Below the pieces are notes generated by a model. It was not told the DNA's origin. It searched no databases and saw only the letters and a program-made list of their open reading frames with translations. A stretch of DNA of 64,000 nucleotides, from assembly GCF_031157375.1 (NCBI RefSeq), contig NZ_JAVIFV010000003.1, positions 1,004,001 to 1,068,000 on the forward strand, read 5' to 3'. Numbering within the stretch: the first letter of the stretch is position 1; each line of letters begins with the position of its first letter. This document shows positions 17,366 to 17,769 of this stretch, in pieces. This stretch comes from Sphingosinicella sp. LHD-64 (GTDB lineage Bacteria > Pseudomonadota > Alphaproteobacteria > Sphingomonadales > Sphingomonadaceae). The translations under genes and the position numbers were made by a program.

Positions 17366-17576
17366 CGGCATTCTCCTGGTCTGGAGGGTAGCGACTCGCG
17401 GTACGCGCAGGCATAGAAGATACTCTACCTGTGCAGTTGACAATGCTCGGGCGACCAGCCGATGTCAATTTGAGCCGGGCCGCGACTGCAAGTTTGGAGG
17501 AATCTTGCCCTCGGCGTCGTCTGGAGAGTGATTAACCGCGGATAACAGCGTCATTCAGGACGGTTTCAATCGCGGT

Positions 17577-17757
17577 GGCTCATTGAAGGACGCGACGGGC
17601 TCAGCGCGGTTCGCGTCCGTTCAGTTCCCATGAATGAGGTGGGATTGCCCCCGGCGATCCCAGCCATGCCTGGGAGGCATGGCGACCTCAATCATTCCCT
17701 CGGGTGGCGTATCGAGGGGAGGCCGGCATTCCGCAACGGGTGCCGGCCTCACTGTTT
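17577..17757 (+). ncRNA. candidate structured small RNA, unknown family
   Basis: A roughly 180-base stretch without a protein gene folds into consecutive strong helices. Hairpin 1 has arms 17583-17595 and 17611-17624, about 13 pairs with one bulge and a GGACGCGA/TCGCGTCC core. A closing stem (17632-17640 with 17685-17697) encloses two hairpins: 17641-17649 with 17653-17661 (9 pairs, loop CCC) and 17663-17670 with 17676-17683 (8 perfect pairs, loop TGGGA). Next is 17698-17702 with 17713-17717. The last is a perfect 10-pair terminator-like stem followed by ACTGTTTT. A weak promoter, ATAACA (17542) and TTCAAT (17565) 17 bases apart, fits a start near 17577. Both flanking genes are on the other strand, so it would be a stand-alone RNA. 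I do not recognise it as 6S, tmRNA, SRP RNA or a known riboswitch. Confidence 0.55.
17719..17757 (+). terminator. intrinsic terminator of the candidate RNA
   Basis: Perfect 10-base-pair stem (GAGGCCGGCA at 17719-17728 with TGCCGGCCTC at 17741-17750), 12-base loop, then ACTGTTTT on the + strand. It lies 13 bases from the stop of the convergent xylC gene and may also slow minus-strand transcripts, but no T-run follows in that direction. Confidence 0.65.
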
Positions 17758-17769
17758 TCCGGACTTCGA

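Follow-up and report, generated by a model that had tools for sequence, protein, structure and literature searches.

What occupies the 181 nt (17577-17757, + strand) that separate the 5' end of yezD from the 3' end of an SMP-30 gene in Sphingosinicella sp. LHD-64? The stretch lies in a window of 64,000 nt, by which is meant the whole piece of DNA that was analysed, and it was singled out from its letters as a likely dedicated small RNA of five strong helices, with a plausible promoter and a terminator, matched to no named family and standing beside pentose and sulfur genes.

Fold, neighbourhood and subdivision of the stretch

Folding of the stretch gave a minimum free energy of -105.6 kcal/mol, against a mean of -75.8 (sd 4.4) for 200 dinucleotide shuffles (z -6.79), and 0/200 shuffles reached the native stability. 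The helices of the original prediction were all found where they had been placed, and the parts gave z values of -2.0 for the 5' hairpin, -5.7 for the three-way junction, -2.8 for the small hairpin and -4.6 for the terminator hairpin. A search of the window against Rfam gave no match at the gathering threshold or at E<=1, in agreement with the view that the RNA belongs to no named family. The neighbours were also as described, with DUF2292 (YezD) and TauE genes to the left and an SMP-30/gluconolactonase gene to the right, all on the - strand. The significance attached to them did not stand, since the locus travels with neither the pentose nor the sulfur gene set and its neighbours in relatives are GST, PilZ-domain, AMP-ligase or oxidoreductase genes. 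A functional tie to pentose or sulfur genes was therefore rejected and the adjacency is incidental.

The idea that all five helices form a single RNA failed as well. BLAST searches of 99 related genomes revealed no conserved 180-nt locus; two sub-stretches (17637-17688 and 17696-17752) instead matched many separate places in the same genus. Because the two parts are dispersed separately, a single conserved 180-nt RNA was rejected, and covariance models were built of the three-way junction (R1, element A, with the window left out of the seeds) and of the last two hairpins (R2, module B). The features of the window are given in Table 1.

Table 1. Features in and around the structured stretch of the window
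Feature	Position	Strand	Basis and remarks
Operator TTAACCGCGGATAACAGCGTCATTCAGGACGGTTTCAAT	17532-17570	+	Half-sites ~11 bp apart: TTAAC, TAAC, TTCAG, TCAA; PWM 36.8, shuffled maximum 0.8
Putative -10-like box TCATTG	17580-17585	+	Aligned by position with CATAAG/CATTGG of stand-alone copies in relatives
5' hairpin GGACGCGA..TCGCGTCC	17588-17618	+	Fold; sequence varies between copies
Element A, dispersed three-way-junction repeat	17630-17695	not assigned	R1 66.2 bits
Module B	17696-17750	+	Hairpin CCCTCGnGTnGCGTAnCGAGGG, almost invariant, and covarying terminator
B hairpin 1 CCCTCGGGTGGCGTATCGAGGG	17697-17718	+	Stem and loop nearly invariant across family
Terminator hairpin	17719-17750	+	z -4.6; two-sided changes at 9/10 helix pairs, 74 copies
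T-run TTTT	17755-17758	+	Sequence

Module B, its operator and its two arrangements

The R2 search found module B in every one of the 26 genomes of the genus, at 1-4 copies each. A 22-bp pattern of the B core occurred in at least 118 stretches in public genomes, mostly of named Sphingomonadaceae; among the matches listed were the genera Sphingomonas, Sphingosinicella, Allosphingosinicella, Sphingomicrobium, Stakelama, Hephaestia and Sphingobium, together with some MAGs named only to higher rank. A third B model under strict filters had a match in at least 25 of 200 genomes of the family and at least 16 of 96 genera. Rfam 15 gave no match at B or at its operator in 17 loci.

The two hairpins of B are conserved in different ways. 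Over 74 aligned copies the terminator helix exhibited compensated variation at nine of its ten pairs, whereas hairpin 1 was nearly unchanged in stem and loop. Loci fetched by exact pattern are biased to the B core, including the loop of hairpin 1, but the copies found only by R2 gave much the same picture. The second B copy of the same genome had outer stem pairs of hairpin 1 that had changed together and a loop, GTTGCGTATC, that had been kept. Retention of the hairpin 1 sequence while the terminator covaries is the pattern expected of a seed or a binding site. The motif GCGTA(T/A)C is also repeated in the 5' regions of the stand-alone transcripts (11 occurrences against 0.4 in shuffles), which would suit several seeds or the titration of a protein. 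This second B copy has a further neighbour, a cobalamin riboswitch (L261:1294-1497, contig C3, 124 bits) that starts shortly 3' of it and its glycine-zipper gene; in relatives the same B locus adjoins cobT.

Alignment of B copies revealed an upstream operator, TGAAC-n6-TRNC-n7-TTCAG-n7-TCAA, with half-sites spaced about 11 bp apart and followed in many copies by a -10-like CATAAG. A promoter ATAACA/TTCAAT had been proposed at this place; the place was right, but the boxes, starting at 17542 and 17566, are parts of operator half-sites and not a -35/-10 pair. The terminator hairpin is likewise present, with a T-run that is short. Overall, a + strand RNA gene with a promoter and terminator of its own was supported, and both ends are kept in relatives.

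The operator lies no more than 320 nt upstream of 61 of 128 distinct B modules, with scores of 12.9-44 and a shuffled maximum of 0.8. A model trained on this stand-alone class alone was then applied further upstream of the others, and 58 of 63 carried the operator at a distance of 449-667 nt from B, against a shuffled maximum of 0.5. Thus 119 of the 128 lie under the common operator, 61 directly and 58 behind an ORF, and nine have no recognisable operator. In most of the 58 the intervening ORF encodes an exported glycine-zipper protein, matching PF05433 in the examples tested, and module B is its 3' UTR. The stand-alone class has no consistent conserved ORF, and a short ORF as its product was rejected on that ground. 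Of the 54 B copies in the genus, 45 had a strict site, at 75-164 nt (25 copies) or 491-628 nt (20 copies), where about 0.02 were expected by chance.

At nine loci of Sphingomonas and Sphingomicrobium the 5' hairpin of the stand-alone RNA is conserved, approximately GACGGGG-TTTTCCCCCTTTTT-CCCCGTC, and its pyrimidine loop is a possible anti-Shine-Dalgarno element.

Strict operator sites number 2-8 per genome and the reversed pattern gave almost none. Those without B precede genes for exported proteins (other glycine-zipper, small coiled-coil and SIMPL-domain proteins), and a few fall outside this set. The genome studied here has four strict sites: that of the window RNA, one at a glycine-zipper gene with B (C3:300044), one at a glycine-zipper gene without B (C1:128908) and one at a coiled-coil gene (C1:940745). 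The coiled-coil proteins make up a family whose members are exported and small (~110-150 aa), seen under the same operator at six loci, and the one member tested had no Pfam match above cut-off.

As to what binds the operator, an EcfG promoter has the form GGAAC-N16/17-CGTT and was considered for its likeness to TGAAC-N16-RTTC. It was disfavoured, since the variable position accepts A as readily as G and the conserved TCAA and the -10 boxes are found further 3'. The operator is probably bound by an OmpR-type response regulator. Its first two half-sites often fit TGA-N8-TGA, the site of CenR in Rhodobacter and relatives, where the regulon consists of envelope proteins (PMC9275681); the window copy reads TTA-N8-TAA. 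CenK and CenR themselves have been reported absent from Sphingomonadales (PMC9275681). ChvI was rejected as the regulator, since its published sites (PMC9731502) differ from the operator.

The predicted RNA and the repeat within it

The stretch probably encodes a regulatory small RNA belonging to a sphingomonad envelope regulon, an RNA that is also made as an mRNA 3' end. A regulator would bind the operator half-sites and transcription would run from about 17590 to an intrinsic terminator at 17719-17758, with the conserved hairpin CCCUCGnGUnGCGUAnCGAGGG directly before that terminator as the probable active part. B may be regarded as the working part of the RNA because nearly all B modules that had sufficient sequence upstream for the examination stand under one operator and the stand-alone ones are without a conserved ORF. 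The same operator is predicted to drive the exported glycine-zipper proteins, whose mRNAs would carry this hairpin and terminator at their 3' ends. With operator and 3' module in common, one signal would therefore yield a protein and a 3'-end RNA at one locus and the RNA alone elsewhere. Most likely the RNA would tune mRNAs of envelope proteins through base pairing of its loop; alternatively it may titrate an RNA-binding protein. Judged from sequence features, the putative promoter, structured noncoding body and terminator would place the locus among intrinsically terminated regulatory sRNAs, and the glycine-zipper class, with its conserved element at the mRNA 3' end and a terminator in common, would count as 3'-UTR-derived in the manner of CpxQ. 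The nine B modules without a recognisable operator and the weak -10 box and T-run of the window count against this explanation. Only tentatively can it be widened to a clade-wide response in which one regulator produces the RNA in two ways, the stand-alone form arose by loss of the ORF and the repeated GCGUA loops serve as several seeds or as a sponge that takes up an RNA-binding protein.

Alternatively, B would do no more than terminate and stabilise the mRNAs of the regulon as their common 3' end, and the stand-alone copies would be functionless remnants of glycine-zipper genes that have lost their ORF. Such copies do carry the operator and the 3' end of those genes with nothing conserved between. 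This is nevertheless unlikely, as a terminator has no need of a further, nearly invariant hairpin whose loop is fixed and beside which the terminator itself varies freely, and stand-alone copies that occur in many genera with intact operators, as many as three per genome, are unlike the products of decay.

The preferred reading, a functional RNA gene, has also to accommodate element A. The R1 search found 14 copies in the same genome. Of the 26 genomes of the genus, 23 had between 1 and 41, and outside it a single copy was found, in one further genus of the family. Standard pairs filled 98% of the pair cells in 38 distinct copies, and two-sided compensatory changes were counted in 197 cells; shuffling of the 3' letters left 44 (maximum 64). 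Within an outer stem stand a CCC-loop arm and, after it, a GGG-loop arm, a layout that is the same on both strands. The three-way junction noticed in the original prediction is this repeat lying inside the probable small-RNA gene, which we infer it reached by insertion. With A taken out, the distance from TTCAG to B is ~76 nt, within the usual 53-102 nt, and the remaining sequence folds into the usual hairpins; A, between the 5' hairpin and B, would lengthen the transcript from ~106 to ~172 nt and leave the operator, B hairpin and terminator intact. The copy in the window is flanked on both sides by TCCC, as an insertion might leave, and since flank repeats over all A copies were only slightly commoner than expected, target-site duplication was set aside. 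An assignment of A to the REPINs with a resident RAYT was also rejected: A has two dispersed hairpins in inverted arrangement, as REPINs do, but despite the 14 copies no hit to the Y1 transposase family (PF01797) was obtained in the same genome; this family was matched in 11 of the 26 genus members.

Two further observations were made on element A. At four loci several copies lie within a few kilobases of one another, and at a further locus A (1501-1566 of L010) takes up the position of the variable arm in a tRNA-like sequence (L010:1455-1588, G014:C3) that scores 35.4 bits over the full Rfam tRNA model and in which ARAGORN finds no tRNA. Two readings fit this sequence, a tRNA that has been broken or one whose variable arm is giant.

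Such an insertion raises the question of whether the window holds a dead sRNA gene, broken by A. The position of A in the transcribed part, the TCCC repeats and a -10 box and T-run weaker than in several relatives would all fit with this, yet it appears rather improbable, for the terminator hairpin is intact and the operator, at 36.8, and the B module, at 61.5 bits with R3, are among the best of all copies. These scores favour a surviving gene. A single RNA family spanning the entire 180 nt, with the junction as its functional domain, is highly improbable, for although the stretch folds as a whole (z -6.8) the junction occurs without B in the same genome (the 14 copies), 60 B loci have no junction and A and B are distributed independently.

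Relation to known systems

The RNA of the window and its operator would make up a previously unnamed small-RNA gene. Searches of the openly accessible literature, in which few subscription journals are represented, gave no description of either, so an earlier description is possible. Sphingomonads are reported to be without CenKR, and their own envelope control and small RNAs have been little described. Operator and RNA module together would define a regulon that has a few sites in each genome and includes an RNA arm of its own, and the two arrangements offer a natural series for studying the possible interconversion of 3'-UTR RNAs and stand-alone sRNA genes. The locus also illustrates that a dispersed structured repeat inside an RNA gene can mislead structure-based RNA finding.

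Element A resembles the REPINs (PMC3116915) in being short and dispersed and in having two inverted hairpins with the same architecture on either strand; it differs in its two unlike arms, long outer stem, lower copy number and the absence of a Y1 transposase from its own genome. The LhrC sRNAs of Listeria are multi-copy envelope-stress sRNAs under a two-component system (PMC4132741), and their multiple copies and repeated loop motif may be a parallel to the RNA described here, although phylum, sequence and genes are different. The CenR regulon (PMC9275681) has a site, TGA-N8-TGA, that the first two half-sites resemble, and has envelope proteins as targets, whereas the operator here has the further half-sites TTCAG and TCAA. 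ChvR of Caulobacter is, similarly, an alphaproteobacterial sRNA with several stem-loops, is under a two-component system and acts on the mRNA of an outer-membrane receptor (PMC6237742). The operator here differs from ChvI sites (PMC9731502), and ChvR, unlike the window RNA, has no described glycine-zipper twin. The nearest analogue of the 3'-UTR form is CpxQ, the 3'-end sRNA of cpxP (PMC4817254, PMC9438474), where in an envelope regulon one mRNA likewise gives a small exported protein and an RNA at its 3' end with the terminator. The sequence and proteins are unrelated, and the system here differs from CpxQ also in its stand-alone twin, which has the same operator and 3' module.
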